A stretch of DNA of 64,000 bases from Streptomyces humicola (GTDB lineage: Bacteria > Actinomycetota > Actinomycetes > Streptomycetales > Streptomycetaceae): positions 186,001 to 250,000 of the forward strand of contig NZ_JANFNG010000004.1 of the NCBI RefSeq assembly GCF_024436035.1, read 5' to 3'. Under the pieces are notes generated by a model. That model ran no database searches, was not told the origin of the DNA, and was given only the letters and a program-made list of their open reading frames with translations. Made by a program: the position numbers and the translations under genes. Of this stretch, positions 25,939 to 36,610 are shown piece after piece. The first letter of the stretch is position 1; each line of letters opens with the position of its first letter.

Positions 25939-26261
25939 CCCCGCGCGCACCGGATCCCGTCCTCCCCCTGCACCGCGGGGGGACCCTCCCCCTGCTCCAC
26001 GGGGGGACCCCCTCCCGACGCCCCTTGGGCACATGACAGGTCCGTCACTCCTCTTCCCCACTGGCCACACAGTCGGAATGCCAAATTCCGCACATTCTCC
26101 ATTGATTGGCGCACAACCATCCATGAGGACGTGACCTGGCCCGGCACGACAAGGCAAACTGGCCGTCACGCGGCTGTACACACCACACCCGGAGATGGTC
26201 CCGGCGGGCGATGAACGATCGATATACGGCCATCGCGCCCCGTGCGGAATGGGAGTCCACC
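25939..26261. other. Divergent intergenic region before afsR
   Basis: No gene is seen. GC-rich near-repeats (GGGGGGACCCTCCCC-like, about 25972-26015) lie next to the ligase-like gene. The middle (26080-26125) is relatively AT-rich and could hold the afsR promoter. A weak TGAC-N6-GTCA at 26034-26047 does not have the spacing of the regulon palindrome. Confidence 0.5.
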
Positions 26262-29198
26262 ATGGATGGCGGAACGGCGCCGGCACTGCGCTTCGCGCTG
26301 CTCGGCCCGGTACGGGCATGGCGCGGCGACGAGCCGCTGCCTGCGGGCTCGCCCCAGCAGCGTGCCCTGCTCGCCGCACTCCTGCTGCGCGGCGGCCGCA
26401 CCGCGACCGCCGACGAGCTCATCGACGCGCTGTGGGGCGAGGAGCCCCCGGACAGCGCGCTCGCCGCCCTGCGCACCTACGCCTTCCGGCTGCGCAAGAT
26501 CCTCGGCGCCGAGACGCTCGTCTCCGAATCCGGCGGCTACGCCCTGCGCATCGCGCCCGGCTCGCTCGACTCCGACAGCGCCGAGCGGTATGCGGTCGAG
26601 GCCGACAAGGCGCGCGCGGCGGGCGACTTCGCCCGGGCGCGCGAGCTGCTCATCGCCGCGCTGGAGCTGTGGGACGGCGAACCGCTCGCCGGGCTGCCCG
26701 GACCATACGCCGACACCCAGCGCACCCGGCTCGCCGAGTGGCGGCTGTCGCTGCTCGAAGCCAGGTTCGCGCTGGACCTCGACCTCGGCGGCCACGGCGA
26801 CGCCGTCTCCGAACTGACCGCCCTGTCCGCGGAGCACCCGCTGCGCGAGCGGCTGCGCGTGCTGCTGATGCTCGCCCTCTACCGCGGCGGACGGCAGGCA
26901 GAAGCGCTCGGCGTCTACGCCGACACCAGGCGGCTGCTCGCCGACGAACTCGGCGTCGATCCGTGCGCCGAGCTCGCCGAGATGCACCAGCGCATCCTGG
27001 AGGCGGATCCGGAGCTCGCAGCGCCTGCGAACACGGGGGCGGCGGCGCCCGCCCCGGCGCCCGTCCGTCCCGCCCAACTCCCTGCTGCCGTTAGCGACTT
27101 CACCGGACGCGCAGCATTCGTCACGGAGCTCGTCGAGGAGCTCGCCGACGCGCGCAGCGGCGTCATGGCCCTGTCCGCGGTGGCCGGCATCGGCGGCGTC
27201 GGCAAGACGACGCTCGCCGTGCACGTCGCGCACGCCGCCCGGGACGCCTTCCCCGACGGCCAGTTGTACGTCGACCTGCAGGGCCAGGACGCACGCCCGG
27301 CCGAGCCCGAGTCCGTCCTCGCCTCCTTCCTGCGGGCGCTCGGCACCCCGGACTCGGCGATACCCGACGGCCTGGAGGACCGCGCGGCGCTCTACCGCTC
27401 CGTGCTCGACGGCCGGCGCGTCCTCGCCCTCTTGGACAACGCACGCGACGCCGCCCAGGTCCGCCCGCTGCTGCCGGGCACGCCCGGCAGCGCCGCCCTG
27501 ATCACCAGCCGGGTGCGCATGGTCGGCCTGGCCGGCGCCCACCTGGTCGACCTCGACGTGATGAGCCCCGAGGAGGCGCTCCAGCTCTTCACCAAGATCG
27601 TCGGCAGGGAGCGGGTGCTCGCGGAACGTCAGGCCGCCCTCGATACCGTCGCCGCCTGCGGATTCCTCCCGCTCGCCATCCGCATCGCCGCCTCGCGGCT
27701 GGCCACCCGCCGCACATGGACGGTCTCCTTCCTCGCCCGCAAACTGAGCGACGAGCGCCGCCGGCTGGACGAGCTCAAGGCGGGTGACCTGGCGGTCAAG
27801 GCCACGTTCGAGCTGGGCTACGGCCAACTTGCCCCTGAACAGGCCCGTGCCTTTCGTCTGTTGTCACTGCCCGACGGGCCCGACTTTTCCCTGGACGCGG
27901 CAGCCGCCGTCCTCGGCATGGACCCTTACGAGGCGGAGTCGCTGCTGGAGGCACTGGTCGACATCAGCCTCCTGGAATCGGCGGCGCCCGCCCGCTACCG
28001 CTTCCACGACCTGCTGCGCCTGTACGCGCGCGAGTGCGCCGCACGCGACGAGACACGCGAAAGCCGTGAGGCGGCGCTCTCGCGGCTGCTGGACTTCTAC
28101 CTGGCGTCGGCGGTCTCCCTGTACGAGCTGGAGAATCCCGGGGACCGAGCGCTGGACCATATGGCGCGCACGACACATGCGGGGCTGACGTTCGACACTC
28201 AAGCAGGCGGCTTGGAGTGGCTCTTCGCCGAAGCGGCGTGCATGCTGGCAGCCGTGCAGCAAACAGCGACGAACGGACGCGTCGCACCGCTGCGGCGAGC
28301 AATCGATCTGCTCTTTGCCTCCCAGAATCTGATGGAATCCGGCATCCACGTTCGCCAGTACGAGCTGGCGCTGCTGGCATTGATCGAGGCGGCAGCGGTC
28401 CGCGGCGAGCCGCTCGTCGAAGGGCGTGCACGGGTGCTGCTCGGCAGGCTGCTCAACTGGACTCGTGGGCGCCTGGAGGAGGCTGATGCCGAAGCGCGGC
28501 GCGCCCACCTGCTGGGCCTGTCCGTGGAGGATCCGCTCACCTGCAGCTACGCGCCGAACCTCCGGGGACTGATCGCCCGGGACCAGAGCCGCTACGAGGA
28601 GGCGGTGGCGTACTACCAGCACGCGCTGGAAGCCTTCCGCGAAGACGGGAACCACAACGGTGAAGCGGCCGTGCTCGGCAACCTCTCCCGCGCCCGTATC
28701 GAACTCGGCGACGTCGAAGTGGCGGTAGCCGCTGCCGAGGAAGGGCTGGCTCTCTATCACGATCTCGACATCACGGGATTCCGCCGTGCCACGTGTCAGT
28801 ACCAGTTGGCGGTTGCCCTGACCGCCGCCGACCGCACCGAAGAGGCCCTGGCCCACCTCTCCGAGGCCCTGACCGAGTTCCGCGGGGCACGGCAACATCT
28901 GTGGGAGGGCCTGACGCTCTTCCGCATGGCAGATGCCCACCTCACGGTGGGGAGGCACCGGCAGGCAGCAGCACACGCCGATCAGGCGCTCGTGCTTCTG
29001 AACGACAACGCAAGCGAGTTGCGCAAGGCCGAAGTACTGATTGTTCTCGGCCATGCCCTGACGGGAATCGGCCAATCTGACCGGGCACAAGCCTGCTGGC
29101 ACGACGCGCTGACCATCTACGCCGCTCTGGACTCGCCGGAAGCCGACGCGGTCCGAAGCCTGCTGAGCGACCCGTCGGCACCAACCGTTGCTGTATAA
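26262..29198 (+). CDS. afsR: AfsR-type SARP regulator (BTAD, NB-ARC, TPR)
   Basis: A 978-aa cytosolic transcription activator. Residues ~9-90 are an OmpR-type winged helix (FALLGPVRAWRGDEPL) and ~95-245 the BTAD domain. NB-ARC follows, with Walker A GIGGVGKTT (Lys ~315) and LALLDNARDA. A C-terminal TPR array of roughly 330 residues includes QSRYEEAVAYYQHALEAF. Length, order and long stretches such as LPLAIRIAASRLATRRTWTV fit S. coelicolor AfsR (993 aa). ATG 26262 is chosen because GGGAG lies six bases before it; an in-frame ATG at 26211 lacks a site. AfsR is known to be phosphorylated by AfsK and to activate afsS. Both an AfsK-type kinase and small genes at the afsS position are present here. 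Confidence 0.88.
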   Translation: MDGGTAPALRFALLGPVRAWRGDEPLPAGSPQQRALLAALLLRGGRTATADELIDALWGEEPPDSALAALRTYAFRLRKILGAETLVSESGGYALRIAPGSLDSDSAERYAVEADKARAAGDFARARELLIAALELWDGEPLAGLPGPYADTQRTRLAEWRLSLLEARFALDLDLGGHGDAVSELTALSAEHPLRERLRVLLMLALYRGGRQAEALGVYADTRRLLADELGVDPCAELAEMHQRILEADPELAAPANTGAAAPAPAPVRPAQLPAAVSDFTGRAAFVTELVEELADARSGVMALSAVAGIGGVGKTTLAVHVAHAARDAFPDGQLYVDLQGQDARPAEPESVLASFLRALGTPDSAIPDGLEDRAALYRSVLDGRRVLALLDNARDAAQVRPLLPGTPGSAALITSRVRMVGLAGAHLVDLDVMSPEEALQLFTKIVGRERVLAERQAALDTVAACGFLPLAIRIAASRLATRRTWTVSFLARKLSDERRRLDELKAGDLAVKATFELGYGQLAPEQARAFRLLSLPDGPDFSLDAAAAVLGMDPYEAESLLEALVDISLLESAAPARYRFHDLLRLYARECAARDETRESREAALSRLLDFYLASAVSLYELENPGDRALDHMARTTHAGLTFDTQAGGLEWLFAEAACMLAAVQQTATNGRVAPLRRAIDLLFASQNLMESGIHVRQYELALLALIEAAAVRGEPLVEGRARVLLGRLLNWTRGRLEEADAEARRAHLLGLSVEDPLTCSYAPNLRGLIARDQSRYEEAVAYYQHALEAFREDGNHNGEAAVLGNLSRARIELGDVEVAVAAAEEGLALYHDLDITGFRRATCQYQLAVALTAADRTEEALAHLSEALTEFRGARQHLWEGLTLFRMADAHLTVGRHRQAAAHADQALVLLNDNASELRKAEVLIVLGHALTGIGQSDRAQACWHDALTIYAALDSPEADAVRSLLSDPSAPTVAV

Positions 29199-29225
29199 AT
29201 CCAGGTCAGCAACGTCAGCGCATGC

Positions 29226-29243
29226 GTTTATCGGTTGCTTATC
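29226..29243 (+). promoter_or_regulatory. SARP-like direct repeat ahead of small gene 1
   Basis: GTTTATC (29226-29232) and GCTTATC (29237-29243) match in six of seven bases at an 11-bp period, the geometry of SARP operators. A weak -10 (CACGAT, 29253-29258) follows nine bases later. Binding by the adjacent AfsR-type protein is inferred. Confidence 0.45.
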
Positions 29244-29276
29244 TCTCGCTGCCACGATTCCATCACGTCAACAGCT

Positions 29277-29315: not shown

Positions 29316-29354
29316 GTCAAGCCACCACCACACAACACCCAACGGGAGAATCCA

Positions 29355-29549
29355 ATGGCCACAGACCTTCCAAACACAGGAACGGGTCCGGGCCCACGCC
29401 GGAACCTCGGCTCGGGCATCGGTTCGGGGGAGTTCGAGGAGCCGAAGGCTCCCGAGCAGCGGCCGCTGGTTGGTGGCGAGGAGGAGGACGAGCTCCTGCC
29501 GCAGGTCGAGAGGCCGATCGTCAAGCCCGACAACTGGGCAGGCGGCTGA
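29355..29549 (+). CDS. Small acidic protein at the afsS position, PDNWAGG C-terminus
   Basis: A 64-aa acidic, Gly/Pro-rich protein with no signal peptide or membrane segment. GGGAG (29344-29348) precedes ATG 29355. It ends RPIVKPDNWAGG. It occupies the place and size of AfsS (63 aa in S. coelicolor), but AfsS is known for repeated DNHxP-type motifs and this has none, only one PDNW near the end. The last nine residues match the pattern at the end of the next small gene (V-[KR]-P-x-N-W-[AG]-G-G). It could be a divergent AfsS, a signalling peptide precursor or a ribosomally made peptide. No maturation enzyme is adjacent. Confidence 0.65.
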   Translation: MATDLPNTGTGPGPRRNLGSGIGSGEFEEPKAPEQRPLVGGEEEDELLPQVERPIVKPDNWAGG

Positions 29550-29596
29550 TCGGATCCGCCCGTTGAGGGCAACGGGGGTACGGGGGACCACTCAGA

Positions 29597-29636
29597 GCCG
29601 GCCATGGCGTGGAGGGGGCGCCGTGGCCGGCGTTTT
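29597..29636 (+). terminator. Intrinsic terminator between the two small genes
   Basis: GCCGGCCATGGCG (29597-29609) pairs with CGCCGTGGCCGGC (29619-29631), 13 bp with one G-U, a nine-base loop, then GTTTT. This is a classic rho-independent terminator. It means small gene 2 probably has its own promoter or depends on read-through. Confidence 0.8.
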
Positions 29637-29681
29637 CATGGCGATCGACGATCAATCGCCCATCAGGGGAATGGAGCAGAC

Positions 29682-29831
29682 ATGACTGCGATGCACAGGG
29701 CCGCCGTCGTGGCGGTCGGCCTCGTCGCAGCCTTGGCGGTGCTGATACTGCCCGTGACGAACGCGAGCGCGGACAGCCCGACCGCCTCACAGCCGACCAC
29801 GGTGCGGCCGGCCAACTGGGGCGGCGGCTGA
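29682..29831 (+). CDS. Small secreted peptide precursor, PANWGGG C-terminus
   Basis: A 49-aa protein. Residues 1-30 look like a Sec signal: a short basic start (MTAMHRAA), a hydrophobic core VVAVGLVAALAVLILPV, and a likely cleavage after NASA. This would release about 19 residues, DSPTASQPTTVRPANWGGG. GGAG (29673-29676) lies about five bases before ATG 29682; ATG 29691 is an internal alternative. The last nine residues, VRPANWGGG, echo VKPDNWAGG of the preceding small protein. Position next to a TPR-containing regulator suggests a peptide signal, by analogy with RNPP systems. That is inference and no receptor evidence is in the sequence. Confidence 0.65.
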   Translation: MTAMHRAAVVAVGLVAALAVLILPVTNASADSPTASQPTTVRPANWGGG

Positions 29832-29907: not shown

Positions 29908-31521
29908 CTAAGGCTGCCGGTCGGCAGTCCCGCGTGACCTCAGCTCGCGCTTGAGCACCTTGCCGCTCGCGTTGCGCGGGAGTTCCCGTACGAACTCCAC
30001 CGTGCGCGGCACCTTGTAGTTGGCCATCTCACGGCGGGACCACGCGATCAGGTCGTCCGCGGTGAGCGCGGCATCCGCGCGGCGGACCACGTACGCCTTG
30101 GCGACCTCGCCGAGACGCGCGTCCGGGACGCCGATCACCGCCGCGTCGAGCACGTCGGGGTGGGCGGCGAGGATCCGTTCTATCTCCGCCGGGTAGGCAT
30201 TGAAACCCCCGACGATGAACACGTCCTTGATGCGGTCGGTGATGCGCAGATTGCCGTCGGCGTCCAGCTTCCCGACGTCGCCCGTGTGCAGCCAGCCGTC
30301 GGCATCGATCGCCTTCGCGGTCTCCTCCGGCTCCTCGAAGTACCCCGACATCACGTGATAGCCGCGCACCAGCACCTCGCCCGACTCCGCGATCCGTACC
30401 TGCGTGTCCGGGATCGCACGGCCGCTCGTCGTCGCGATGGCCTCGGCGGGGTCACCGCTGCGGCACATCGTCACCGTGCCGGACGCCTCCGTCAGGCCGT
30501 ACGCCGTGAGCACCGTGGCGATCTTCAGCTCGGTGCGGAGGCGTTCGACGAGTTCGAGGGGGACGACCGACGCTCCGGTCACCACCAGACGCAGGGCCGA
30601 CAGGTCATGGGCTCCACGCGACGGGTGGTCGAGGATCGACTGGTGCAGCGTCGGCGGGCCCGGCAGCACGCTGATGCGCTCTGCCGCGATGTTGGCGAGC
30701 GCCGTCTCCACATTGAAGACCGGTTGCGGGACCATCGTGGCCCCGCGCATCAGGCAGGCGATGATGCCGGCCTTGTAGCCGAAGGTGTGAAAGAAGGGGT
30801 TGACGATCAGATAACGGTCGCCCTCCGTGAGCCCGGCCAGTTCGCTCCACACTCCGTAGACGCGCAACGTCTGCTCATGGCTGATGACCGCGCCCTTGGG
30901 ATGGCCCGTGGTGCCGGAGGTGAAGGTGATGTCGGAGGGCACCGACGGGCGTACGGCGTCCGCCCGTTCGCGTACCACGTCCGGCGACACCCGCTGTCCG
31001 CTGCTAAGGAACTCCGTCCAGGAGCGGAAGTCCTCCGGGGCATCGTCGGCGAGCACCACCACCTCGCGCAGATGCGGGAGCCCCGGCAACGGGCCCGGTC
31101 CGCTGCCCCTCCCGACGCCTCTCCCGCTGTCCGTTCCCGCCGCGCGCCGCAGCGACGCGACGTACGACGTGCCCAGGAAGGTGCCGGTCACGAAGAGCAT
31201 GGCGGCCCGCGTCCGCTGCAGCACATAGGCCGCCTCGGCCCCCTTGATGCGGGTGTTGAGGGGTACCAGGACGCCCCCGGCCGACACCGCGCCCAGCGCG
31301 GCCACCACCCAGTCGAGGGTGTTGGGCGCCCAGACGGCGACCCGGTCACCACTCTGCAGCCCCGCGGCGATGCAGGCCGCCGCCGCGCGCTCGACGCGCT
31401 CGCCGAGCTCGGCGTAGCTGATCCGGGTACGGCCGTCGACGACAGCCTCGCGCATCCCGTACCGCCGCGCAGCCTCCCGTACCAGCCGGGGGATGGTCCC
31501 GAACTCCAGGTCACCACGCAT
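29908..31521 (-). CDS. fadD3: FadD3-like acyl-CoA synthetase (HIP-CoA ligase type)
   Basis: A 537-aa adenylate-forming ligase. Key motifs are TSGTTGHPKG (P-loop), NPFFHTFGYKAG, SVLPGPPTLHQSILDHPSR, AYGLTEASG, WLHTGD, GGFNAYPAEIERIL and NASGKVLK with the catalytic Lys. These segments match the mycobacterial FadD3 pattern closely; FadD3 activates the propionate side chain of HIP, the C/D-ring remnant of cholesterol. ATG 31521 follows GGAGGCGGGACC. It is transcribed away from the Ltp2-like gene across two shared palindromes. A low-complexity Gly/Pro insert (DSGRGVGRGSGPGPLPG, residues ~130-146) is unlike the mycobacterial protein. Confidence 0.88.
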   Translation of the reverse strand: MRGDLEFGTIPRLVREAARRYGMREAVVDGRTRISYAELGERVERAAAACIAAGLQSGDRVAVWAPNTLDWVVAALGAVSAGGVLVPLNTRIKGAEAAYVLQRTRAAMLFVTGTFLGTSYVASLRRAAGTDSGRGVGRGSGPGPLPGLPHLREVVVLADDAPEDFRSWTEFLSSGQRVSPDVVRERADAVRPSVPSDITFTSGTTGHPKGAVISHEQTLRVYGVWSELAGLTEGDRYLIVNPFFHTFGYKAGIIACLMRGATMVPQPVFNVETALANIAAERISVLPGPPTLHQSILDHPSRGAHDLSALRLVVTGASVVPLELVERLRTELKIATVLTAYGLTEASGTVTMCRSGDPAEAIATTSGRAIPDTQVRIAESGEVLVRGYHVMSGYFEEPEETAKAIDADGWLHTGDVGKLDADGNLRITDRIKDVFIVGGFNAYPAEIERILAAHPDVLDAAVIGVPDARLGEVAKAYVVRRADAALTADDLIAWSRREMANYKVPRTVEFVRELPRNASGKVLKRELRSRGTADRQP

Positions 31522-31552
31522 GGTCCCGCCTCCGCCGCCTCCGCCCAGATAG

Positions 31553-31594
31553 CTGACTATCTGTCAGATTAGCGGTAGCCTGACGCGCTGTCAG
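31553..31594. promoter_or_regulatory. Two CTGAC-N5-GTCAG operators in the fadD3/ltp2 divergent promoter
   Basis: CTGAC-TATCT-GTCAG (31553-31567) and CTGAC-GCGCT-GTCAG (31580-31594), both perfect, centres 27 bp apart. TAGCCT (31576-31581) is a likely -10 for the rightward gene, and GATAGT inside the first site serves the leftward gene. One repressor could control both directions. Confidence 0.85.
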
Positions 31595-31622
31595 CAATGA
31601 TGAAGCGCCATGGAGGTGGGCG

Positions 31623-32774
31623 GTGGGGGCATTGGTCAAGGACGCTACCGCGATCGTCGGCATAGGCCAGACTCCGTTCGCAAAACGACTCGACGAGCCG
31701 GAGAAGACCCTCGCCTGCCGGGCGATCCTGGCCGCACTCGACGACGCCGGCATCGACGCATCGGAAGTCGACGCCTTCGCCTCCTACACCATGGAGGAGA
31801 CCGACGAGGTCGAGATCGCCAAGTCGATCGGCGCAGGTGACGTCACCTTCTTCTCCAAGGTCGGGTACGGGGGCGGAGGCTCGTGCGCGACCGTCGGCCA
31901 CCTCGCGGCCGCGATCGCCACCGGCCAGGCGAGCGTCGGCGTCGCGTGGCGCTCCCGCAAACGCGGCTCCGGCAAGCGCCCCTGGACCGACACGCAAGTG
32001 CAGCTGCCGACCCCCGCGCAGTGGACCAGGCCGTTCGGGCTGCTCCGCCCCACCGACGAGATCGGCATGCTCGCCCGCCGCTACATGCACGAATACGGCG
32101 CCACCCGCGACCACTTCTTCAATGTCGCGCTCGCCTGCCGCAACCGGGCCAACCAGAACCCGGCGGCGATGATGTACGAGCGCCCGCTCACCCGCGAGAT
32201 GTACATGACCGCCCGCTGGATCAGCGAGCCGCTCTGCCTCTTCGACAACTGCCTCGAGACGGACGGCGCGCTGGCCTGCGTGATCACCTCGGCGGAACGT
32301 GCACGCGACTGCCGGCGCCGCCCCGTCTACGTCCACGCCACCGCGCAGGGGCTGCCCGCGCAGCACCACGGCATGGTCAACTACTGGGCCGACGACCCGC
32401 TGTCGGGGCCGGCCTGGACCGCGGCCCGCCACCTGTGGAAGACCGCCGACTTCGGACCGCAGGATATCGACGTCGCGCAGATCTACGACGCCTTCACCCC
32501 GCTGATCCCGCTCTCCCTCGAAGGCTACGGCTTCTGCGGGCGCGGCGAGGGCGCGGCGTTCACCGAGGGCGGCGCGCTGGAGCTGGGCGGACGGCTGCCG
32601 CTCAACACCTCCGGCGGGGGGCTCTCAGAGGCCTACGTCCACGGCTTCAACCTGATCACCGAGGGCGTCAAGCAGCTGCGCGGCACCTCCACCGCGCAGG
32701 TGCCGGACGCCGCGACCTGCCTGGTCACCGCGGGTGAGGGCGTGCCCACCTCCGCTCTGCTGCTGAGGAGTTGA
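31623..32774 (+). CDS. ltp2: Ltp2-like thiolase-fold protein (steroid side-chain aldolase type)
   Basis: A 383-aa thiolase-superfamily lipid-transfer protein. It has YGGGGSCATVGHLAAAIATG, ARRYMHEYGATRDHF, ETDGALACVITSAERARD, IYDAFTP and NTSGGGLSEAYVHGFN, ending TAGEGVPTSALLL. These align by eye with mycobacterial Ltp2, which with a DUF35 partner performs the retro-aldol removal of the last side-chain carbons at C17. The catalytic Cys of true thiolases is absent from the usual position. GTG 31623 has GGAGG six bases upstream. The DUF35 gene follows at once, as expected for a complex. Confidence 0.82.
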   Translation: MGALVKDATAIVGIGQTPFAKRLDEPEKTLACRAILAALDDAGIDASEVDAFASYTMEETDEVEIAKSIGAGDVTFFSKVGYGGGGSCATVGHLAAAIATGQASVGVAWRSRKRGSGKRPWTDTQVQLPTPAQWTRPFGLLRPTDEIGMLARRYMHEYGATRDHFFNVALACRNRANQNPAAMMYERPLTREMYMTARWISEPLCLFDNCLETDGALACVITSAERARDCRRRPVYVHATAQGLPAQHHGMVNYWADDPLSGPAWTAARHLWKTADFGPQDIDVAQIYDAFTPLIPLSLEGYGFCGRGEGAAFTEGGALELGGRLPLNTSGGGLSEAYVHGFNLITEGVKQLRGTSTAQVPDAATCLVTAGEGVPTSALLLRS

Positions 32775-32775
32775 G

Positions 32776-33234
32776 ATGACTGCTGCTGCGACTGCGACGT
32801 TGCTGACCCCCGTCACGGACGACGACGGCGCGCCCTTCTGGGAGTACGCCGCACGCGGTGAGCTGCGTATCCAGGCGTGCTCCGGGTGCAAACGGCTGCG
32901 CTTCCCACCACGGCCCTGCTGCCCGTACTGCCGGTCGTTCGAGAGCGAGTGGCGCAGGATGTCCGGACGCGGCCGGATCTGGTCGTTCGTGATCGCACAT
33001 CCGCCGCTGCTGCCCGCATACGCGGAACAGGCCCCGTACAACGCGATCGTCGTCGAGCTCGCCGAGGCGCCGGGCATCCGGCTCGTCGGCAATCTGGTCG
33101 CGCGCCCCGACGCGCCGCTCGACTCGGTCGATCGGGCGCGGTTGCGCATCGGCGCCGCGGTGAAGGTCTGCTTTCACCGCATGGGCAGTGCGGACGGCGT
33201 CACCGTGCCGCGCTGGCTGCTGGAGCGGCCGTGA
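32776..33234 (+). CDS. DUF35 OB-fold protein (ChsH2 C-domain-like), Ltp2 partner
   Basis: A 152-aa protein with a rubredoxin-like zinc knuckle, CSGCKRLRFPPRPCCPYC (residues ~35-52), followed by an OB-fold. This architecture binds acyl-CoA and docks on thiolase-like lipid-transfer proteins; in mycobacteria the equivalent domain is the C-terminal half of ChsH2. Here it is free-standing, and no MaoC-like hydratase domain is fused or adjacent. It starts one base after the Ltp2-like stop. Its own stop overlaps the next start (GTGA). Confidence 0.85.
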   Translation: MTAAATATLLTPVTDDDGAPFWEYAARGELRIQACSGCKRLRFPPRPCCPYCRSFESEWRRMSGRGRIWSFVIAHPPLLPAYAEQAPYNAIVVELAEAPGIRLVGNLVARPDAPLDSVDRARLRIGAAVKVCFHRMGSADGVTVPRWLLERP

Positions 33235-34007
33235 CGACCGGGGTGGACGTCGATGTGCGGGGGAAGGACGGCATCGCGGTGGTCAGGCTGGGCCGCCCCG
33301 AGCGGCTCGGCGCGATCGACCCGGCCACCGCCGGTGAACTCACCGCCGTCTGGCGGAGGTTCCGGATGTCGGACGAGGTCCGCGTCATCGTCCTCACCGG
33401 CTCGGGCGACAAGGCGTTCTGCACCGGCCTTGACAGATCGGCCGATGTGCCGCAGCCGCCCTCCCCGTACGCGATCGACGACCCGTTGATCGCCATCGGA
33501 CCGAAATCCGCCGACCTGTGGAAGCCGGTGATCGCCGCGGTCAACGGAATGGCGTGCGGCGGAGCCTTCTACCTGCTCGGGGAGTGCGAGTTCATCATCG
33601 CCGCCGAGCACGCCACCTTCTTCGACCCGCATACGACGTACGGGATGGTGAGCGCGTACGAGTCCATCGGCATGGCGCAGCGCATGCCGTACGGCGAGGT
33701 GATGCGCATGGCGCTGATGGGCACGGCGGAACGGGTCGGCGCGCGGCGCGCCTACGAGACCGGGCTGGTCTCCGAGGTGGTGCCGGGTCCTGAGCTGCTG
33801 GACGCGGCGCTGCGCGCGGCCTCCGTGATCGCCGCCTGCCCGACGGAGGCCGTGCAGGGCACGGTACGGGCGGTGTGGTCCGCGCGCGAGGCGGCACGGG
33901 CGCAGGCACTGGCCTACGCGCCCCACCTGATCGCGTTGGGCAACGCGGCGCCCGCCCGGCAGGCGGAGCTGTTCGCCGACCGGGGGCGTGAGTTCCGCGT
34001 GCGCTGA
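33231..34007 (+). CDS. Enoyl-CoA hydratase/isomerase family protein
   Basis: A 258-aa crotonase-fold protein starting at GTG 33231, which overlaps the DUF35 stop; GGAG lies six bases upstream. The oxyanion-hole segments are AFCTGLDRSA and NGMACGGAFYLLGE. The catalytic Glu positions of classical hydratases are not obvious: the second region reads PHTTYGMVSAYESIG. It is third in the ltp2 operon. It may hydrate, isomerise or cleave a steroid-derived enoyl-CoA; the exact reaction cannot be read. Confidence 0.82.
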   Translation: MTTGVDVDVRGKDGIAVVRLGRPERLGAIDPATAGELTAVWRRFRMSDEVRVIVLTGSGDKAFCTGLDRSADVPQPPSPYAIDDPLIAIGPKSADLWKPVIAAVNGMACGGAFYLLGECEFIIAAEHATFFDPHTTYGMVSAYESIGMAQRMPYGEVMRMALMGTAERVGARRAYETGLVSEVVPGPELLDAALRAASVIAACPTEAVQGTVRAVWSAREAARAQALAYAPHLIALGNAAPARQAELFADRGREFRVR

Positions 34008-34072: not shown

Positions 34073-36466
<2,394 letters not shown>

Positions 36467-36610
36467 TGCCCTGCCACCTCCCCGTATCCCCCGGAATTGT
36501 CGCAGCCCCTCGGGCCGTCCCACCGTCAACCGTCCGGGGCACGGTCCCTGATTCTTCCTGGGAAGCGCCCCGGTTGCGAACCCGGGCCGATTTTGTGCGT
36601 GGCGCGGACC

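Follow-up and report, generated by a model that had tools for sequence, protein, structure and literature searches.

AfsS and a putatively secreted twin share a species-specific pentapeptide that covaries with the TPR domain of AfsR in Streptomycetaceae

The afsR locus of Streptomyces humicola and its two small genes

The window is a stretch of 64,000 nucleotides from Streptomyces humicola (contig NZ_JANFNG010000004.1, positions 186,001 to 250,000). It contains the following features, in positions of the window:

26259-29198, + strand: afsR, 979 aa; SARP (OmpR-type DNA binding and BTAD), NB-ARC/NOD, arm and TPR sensor
28407-29132, + strand: TPR superhelix of AfsR, residues about 717-958; proposed pentapeptide receptor, from covariation and AlphaFold2
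Within AfsR, proposed key residues of the TPR receptor: Q689, N733, L768, R774, D775, A825, R842, L885, R922
29225-29246, + strand: afs box (AfsR operator), two 11-bp direct repeats CGTTTATCGGT / TGCTTATCTCT, upstream of afsS
29355-29549, + strand: afsS orthologue, 64 aa, ATG start, cytosolic, acidic, one motif copy
29532-29546, + strand: pentapeptide NWAGG at the C-terminal end of AfsS (inside VKPDNWAGG)
29597-29631, + strand: stem-loop terminator between afsS and the twin, 14 pairs and a T tract
29682-29831, + strand: secreted twin, 49 aa, ATG start; Sec-like signal at residues 1-30, ASA/D; predicted 19-residue mature peptide DSPTASQPTTVRPANWGGG
29814-29828, + strand: pentapeptide NWGGG at the C-terminal end of the twin (inside VRPANWGGG)
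34073-36529, - strand: afsK-like Ser/Thr kinase with PQQ beta-propeller (Pfam Pkinase 1.3e-38, PQQ_2 3.5e-45)

The product of the large gene scores 1468.7 bits against the NCBIfam model NF053617, 'SARP-family global regulator AfsR' (cut-off 1430), has Pfam matches to BTAD, NB-ARC and TPR, and is 42% identical to S. coelicolor AfsR (8k60) in an alignment of its C-terminal third. A preliminary description of this DNA had the adjacent regulator end in a TPR array, and the family model, the Pfam TPR matches and the TPR helix array predicted by AlphaFold2 bear this out. The afsK-like gene presumably encodes the known type of AfsR kinase, and afsK orthologues are also present in the afsR loci of relatives. 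Between the twin and afsK (29908-34007) lie genes for an acyl-CoA ligase, a thiolase-like protein, a ChsH2-type OB-fold protein and an enoyl-CoA hydratase. Five AfsR orthologues (G074, G104, G117, G147 and G187) contain one in-frame stop (TGA or TAG), owing to sequencing error or decay.

The 64-aa ORF is on the same strand as afsR, starts 157 nt past the afsR stop and is preceded by a Shine-Dalgarno-like GGGAGA at 29344-29349. The afs box upstream of it fits the published AfsR repeat CGTT(T/C)ATCGNN (PMC10972967), and a half-site of the box is kept in six relatives (L011-L016), 124-145 nt upstream of the afsS ATG. In relatives, the ORF found 120-500 nt downstream of afsR forms a graded motif series toward DxHAT repeats. 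The series runs from a Trp end (PDNWAGG in the window, PDNWSNT in L013, PDTWGNT twice in L011 and L012), through a middle (PDNYHTP in L017, PDNFHND twice in L018, PDNIYTEG twice in L020), to a HAT end (DWHAT twice in L021, DFHAT three times in L024, DAHAT four times in L023). One locus, L279, encodes the C-terminal region of S. coelicolor AfsR with 100% identity, and its AfsS, with 63 aa and three copies of DNHMP, agrees with the literature, in which AfsS has 63 aa and three 12-aa repeats (PMC2267785). As to repeats, the 64-aa protein of the window has a single motif copy, and the relatives L011 and L012 carry two. Pfam and NCBIfam searches with both small proteins gave no significant match. 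Based on its position, the afs box and the graded motif series in relatives, the 64-aa protein was identified as AfsS; thus, as far as sequence can tell, the gene is the known antibiotic activator afsS (afsR2) and not a new one. Like AfsS/AfsR2 of S. coelicolor and S. lividans, it is the next gene after afsR, has an afs box and encodes an acidic protein of about 63 aa with the short segment that is repeated there; unlike these, it has one C-terminal copy, with a Trp motif (PDNWAGG) and no His. The preliminary description had proposed a cytosolic relative of a secreted signal, or a new short peptide product. The cytosolic protein is long known, whereas the secreted twin and the idea of a ligand are new. 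AfsS was reportedly discovered in 1994, and its mode of action is said to be unknown.

The 49-aa ORF is preceded by a Shine-Dalgarno-like GGAG at 29673-29676. Judged from composition and the AxA site, its N-terminus has the features of a signal peptide, namely a positively charged n-region, a hydrophobic core and a cleavage-like site A-S-A/D at residues 28-31. Both ORFs of the preliminary description, the 64-aa protein ending in VKPDNWAGG and the 49-aa Sec-type protein ending in VRPANWGGG, were found in place and are conserved: AfsS and twin, both with a W motif, are kept at the same place in the six related genomes L011-L016. With their motifs also matching within a genome, the view that the two genes belong together stands. 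Each of the seven loci in the 'W' clade, to which the window belongs, carries the twin, and overall it was recognisable in 52 of 215 afsR loci whose downstream sequence covers at least 1150 bp, a lower bound given that the filter demands a ribosome-binding site and a clear signal. Missing from about three quarters of the loci, S. coelicolor included, the twin is an accessory. A genome search of S. coelicolor revealed no twin and located DNHMP solely inside AfsS. Within its own genome the window's twin has no paralogue elsewhere (second match E 0.12). When 81 Streptomyces genomes were searched with a twin profile, strong matches adjoined afsR homologues, with one or two exceptions, and weak matches (E above about 1e-5) were mostly ordinary signal peptides. 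At L121 (1498-1704, - strand), a twin with ENHSS...ENHGS has no afsR within 1.5 kb.

Typical twins read ...PAMA/DNHIPVAAAPLDSHLPMAPQDNHIPLSPQDNHIP (L056) and ...PALA/DNPMPVAPLDNPMP (L085), the slash marking the predicted signal-peptidase cut. A motif copy directly follows AxA in 26 of 45 twins, and the motif is the very C-terminus in 28 of 45. Many Streptomyces twins have a mature N-terminus D-N-H or D-S-H after AxA, an ATCUN-like Cu/Ni-binding end that is absent from the window's clade. L043 has tandem twins, 660-809 and 1073-1243 bp past the end of the afsR match, with differing motifs (DNHTT/DNHST, and DNHMT three times), and its AfsS has DNHAT. Twins with mixed or foreign pentapeptides occur at L222, L228, L256 and L206, for example DNAMP and NTHIT in one twin, and are possibly intermediates, decoys or recent transfers. 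At L129, an AfsR paralogue of 44% identity is accompanied by an AfsS-like ERHQT and a twin-like ERHQS protein of its own (1111-1257 and 1501-1686); other SARP-NOD-TPR regulators may likewise have private peptide pairs. We found no description of a secreted AfsS twin in the open-access literature; the twin is the new half of a gene pair of which AfsS is the known half.

The hairpin at 29597-29631 is the sole terminator-like hairpin on the + strand of the region, and with the two ribosome sites GGGAGA and GGAG it agrees with the earlier view of two genes, each with a ribosome site, separated by a terminator. No sigma70-type promoter was found between hairpin and twin, and no convincing afs box upstream of the twin. 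Since no such promoter was found and the hairpin lies only about 50 nt upstream of the twin ATG, read-through of a leaky terminator would be as likely a route to twin expression as an own promoter. A G+C-rich stem with a GGAGGGG-type (Shine-Dalgarno-like) loop is kept in L011-L016, L043, L053, L056, L073, L085, L105 and L114. The sequence flanking it changes across Streptomycetaceae, and the hairpin may be a terminator or a regulatory element of the twin.

A species-specific pentapeptide and its covariation with the AfsR TPR domain

The pattern P-x-N-W-[AG]-G-G-stop has exactly two matches in the 7.07-Mb genome, both at this locus and 282 nt apart, and a reversed control pattern has none, so the shared end goes beyond chance. 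The preliminary description had put the shared motif as a nine-residue end, V-[KR]-P-x-N-W-[AG]-G-G. The sharing and the conservation of a motif hold, but the nine residues are not the conserved unit; this is a pentapeptide (N-W-A-G-G and N-W-G-G-G in the window), usually after P-D or P-A, and in relatives often internal and repeated. In this general form, the motif follows nearly every afsR examined in Streptomycetaceae. AfsS proteins carry one to nine copies, and where there are two to nine, the copies within one AfsS are nearly always identical. Among 203 genomes, we found 92 different pentapeptides, with His at slot 3 in 180. Within a genome, AfsS and twin match: the mean best-copy score over 45 twins is 24.5, as compared to 9.6+-1.1 for permuted pairs (0/20000). 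An earlier independent scoring of 18 genomes gave the same AfsS-twin match, the W clade alone reaching 48/20,000. Two twins are at odds with their own AfsS (ENHAG against DTHAT in L256, DSHIT against NVHAT in L206).

Were the motif a ligand, a change in it would be expected to go along with a change in its receptor. We therefore compared motif distance between genomes with distance in every AfsR domain, using the remaining three domains as controls in each case. In a first set of 91 loci, the TPR domain gave a rho of 0.69 and a partial correlation of 0.537 (0/500 permutations), as against -0.05 for SARP, -0.01 for NOD and 0.07 for the arm. In a second set of 112 further Streptomyces, with near-duplicates removed, the partial correlation for TPR was 0.688 (0/300), and those for the other domains -0.01 to 0.06; this is a replication and not a phylogenetically independent test, because it is a separate sampling within the same genus. 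Evolutionary speed is not the cause of the TPR signal, since the arm diverges as much as the TPR domain.

The signal can be followed to single residues. Of the 20 AfsR columns that covary best, all but one fall within the TPR region (defined here from residue 756 on); the exception is in the arm. D or E at slot 1 always goes with R842 (149/149), and K842 solely with N. At slot 2, the partners at position 768 are D for N (51/61), E for S (21/24), A for M (10/10), I for V (12/13) and Q for A, and W, the class of the window, goes with L768 and Q689. At slot 5, T goes with R922 (110/111), P mostly with M or W at 922, and S with V885. As read from these alignments, the couplings are residue-specific and chemically sensible in their pairing of charge and size. 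In 101 phylogenetically independent pairs, with a Bonferroni line of 8e-5, slot 2 is coupled to N733 (3e-10), Q689 (1.5e-9) and L768 (4.5e-6), slot 3 to A825 (2e-6), slot 4 to R774 (1e-7) and slot 5 to L885 (5e-7), whereas R842 (0.011) and R922 (0.0013) miss the line. Few columns outside the TPR domain covary with the motif; two of them are N626 of the arm, which goes with slot 1 (5e-6 in the independent pairs), and F76 of SARP.

The same code extends to the twin. When the AfsR code was learned from 157 genomes without a twin, the own twins scored -0.77, as compared to -4.86+-0.50 for permuted ones (0/20000). Thus, a code that has seen no twin recognises each AfsR's own twin, which ties the twin to the same receptor as AfsS. 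The pentapeptide of S. coelicolor, predicted blind from its AfsR as D-N-H-M-T, agrees with the actual DNHMP at four of five positions; this is mild support only, because DNPMP of the nearest relative would also score 4/5. The preliminary description had a peptide act on the SARP regulator, and of this idea the partner has become firmer: the AfsR TPR domain is the best-supported one, with a covariation that is strong, TPR-specific and replicated. A ligand relation between motif and TPR domain was not found described in the open-access literature, many subscription papers lying outside it.

AlphaFold2 predicts the C-terminal region of AfsR as a TPR superhelix with pLDDT above 90. In a phmmer search of this region against the PDB, the best match other than AfsR was RapJ (4gyo, 3.3e-6), with RapH at 0.0046. 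By fold, LGN-peptide complexes come first in the Foldseek list, which also contains RapJ-CSF, RapI, NprR, RapF and Rap of phi105 with peptide. The likeness is common to other peptide-binding TPRs (LGN, KLC). For docking, TPR domain, linker and AfsS were modelled as one chain with stop codons read as Gln, a modelling device only. In the chain of the window, AfsS was disordered (pLDDT mostly 31-40) and did not dock. In that of L088, the sole linker or AfsS residues with pLDDT of at least 50 were 476-481, D-M-H-A-T-S, in the last motif copy. This motif-specific rise into the 50-70 band, judged from pLDDT values, is weak and suggestive of docking of the motif and no more. Among the top 30 covarying columns, groove-lining A helices are no more frequent than B helices (13 versus 14), and the ranking as a whole does not support a groove either, so we do not claim a mapped one.

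Alternative explanations

Linkage is the most obvious source of a spurious correlation. The genes are adjacent, the correlation sits in the 3' part of afsR and rises from about residue 700 (50-aa windows), and co-transfer of the afsR 3' end with afsS could produce this pattern with no physical interaction. However, synonymous TPR distance correlates with the motif at a partial of only 0.08, whereas TPR amino acids retain 0.53 after control for every synonymous and other-domain distance, which speaks against co-transfer as the cause; moreover, the neighbouring and equally divergent arm shows next to no signal, and the residue couplings have a sense in charge and size that is upheld in independent pairs. 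Linkage was therefore rejected on the synonymous-distance control as largely refuted, and we regard it as very improbable. It is also improbable, though a little less so, that the motif answers to some other protein that covaries with AfsR, such as the AfsK beta-propeller, RNA polymerase or another regulator. AfsK sits in the locus, and by tradition AfsS goes under the label 'sigma-like', with RNA polymerase or promoters named as its targets (PMC2267785, PMC8007912). Yet the propeller gives a partial of -0.08, against 0.39 for the AfsR TPR domain, in a weak control of 10 loci only; RNA polymerase would be far too conserved for 92 matching specificities; and one-to-one residue couplings indicate AfsR itself. 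Least probable of all is a metal site (an ATCUN-like D-N-H end after AxA) or a RiPP core, although the frequent His at slot 3 and the position of the first copy right after AxA in over half of the twins speak for it, as does the distant relationship of AfsR to the HaaT and FxSxx TPR proteins of cyclophane RiPP systems. Elsewhere slot 3 is A, S, G, a W-context residue or N, with NWAGG of the window among them, and the logic of the locus is the same; a cyclophane at X3 is chemically out of reach for G-G ends. Membership in the HaaA/FxSxx cyclophane RiPPs was rejected, since AfsR scores far below the cut-offs of the partner TPR models (HaaT 281 against 1125, FxSxx 100.5 against 300).

The alternative that deserves most weight accepts the recognition between AfsS and AfsR and concerns the twin, which would act as a decoy, have an unrelated job in the envelope, or be what is left of a duplicated afsS with a signal peptide. 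We consider this the less likely reading of the twin, albeit a serious one: the gene is patchily distributed and absent from S. coelicolor, and the few mismatched twins mentioned above speak for it. Against it, the twins of the W clade and of Streptomyces have all kept signal peptide, position and motif, a mere remnant would not be expected to preserve one reading frame, an AxA site and the motif at predicted free N- and C-termini, and both the own-genome match and the fit to the own AfsR were never reached in 20000 permutations. We thus prefer a twin that is made for the receptor of AfsS, which seems probable.

A proposed peptide ligand of AfsR

AfsR is described as a STAND-type activator restrained by its NOD and TPR domains and relieved by ATP, and the inducer of its sensor domain is stated to be unknown (PMC10936776). 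Recognition of the motif by the TPR domain is, from the covariation, very likely, and we infer, with somewhat less certainty, that AfsS and the exported twin present a species-specific peptide serving as ligand to the TPR sensor of AfsR. In the proposed mechanism, AfsR, held back by NOD and TPR, would turn on afsS through the afs box; activation of afsS by AfsR is published for S. coelicolor, and the box is present in the window. AfsS, with its one to nine motif copies, would then bind the AfsR TPR domain, and this would switch AfsR between inhibition and activity, most likely as a positive loop that carries AfsR action to further promoters such as phoRP, pstS and glnR. AfsS is most likely an inducer of AfsR, or less likely its brake, and a positive sign of its effect is modestly favoured. 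AfsR binds the pstS, phoRP and glnR promoters (PMC10972967), and disruption of afsS perturbs phoRP/pst, nitrogen genes and antibiotic production (PMC2267785); a positive loop through AfsR would therefore explain how AfsS, a protein without a DNA-binding domain, can change phoRP, pstS and glnR. Where a twin exists, the same ligand would be exported by Sec, trimmed and possibly imported by an oligopeptide permease, and the imported peptide would signal to AfsR the presence of neighbours whose pentapeptide is the same, in the way that Phr peptides act on Rap. Extracellular signalling by the twin is the more tentative part of this proposal.

Some further points count against the ligand reading. 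Multicopy afsS is reportedly active without afsR, which would call for a second receptor. Slots 3-5 of the window's motif are small residues (A/G), which is unusual for a ligand. And, according to a review, AfsS binds upstream of pathway activators (PMC8007912).

The proposed system resembles Rap/Phr and other RRNPP systems of Bacillota in its short Sec-type precursor with a C-terminal pentapeptide, sometimes in tandem copies, its adjacent cytosolic TPR receptor and its species-specific pherotypes, and the AfsR TPR domain resembles RapJ by sequence and fold. It differs in that AfsR is a STAND SARP activator (SARP-NOD-TPR) where those receptors are phosphatases or HTH proteins, in having a cytosolic multi-copy ligand, AfsS, that is more widespread than the exported form, and in its actinomycetotal host, the published RRNPP searches describing Bacillota (PMC10075063). 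Because AfsR carries SARP and NB-ARC in place of the HTH or phosphatase-type output domain of that family, AfsS/AfsR would work like RRNPP systems without being a member. With the STAND regulators MalT and GutR, AfsR shares autoinhibition by NOD and repeat sensor, released by ATP and, for AfsR as proposed here, by an inducer; unlike theirs, its inducer would be a peptide encoded by a neighbour gene and not a sugar.

Streptomycetes are known for gamma-butyrolactone signals, not for Phr-like ones. The covariation answers the questions of the AfsS mechanism and of the AfsR inducer with one testable claim, that the TPR domain of AfsR has the AfsS pentapeptide as its ligand. If it is true, the 203 genomes display 92 pherotypes and a recognition code that can be read, and short synthetic peptides could switch a global antibiotic regulator, which would be useful for waking silent clusters. 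The secreted twin would then suggest peptide-based self-recognition in streptomycetes. AfsR might be, although we put this forward with reserve, the intracellular receptor of a peptide-pheromone system of Streptomycetaceae, in which antibiotic production would be tuned by self-recognition among neighbours.
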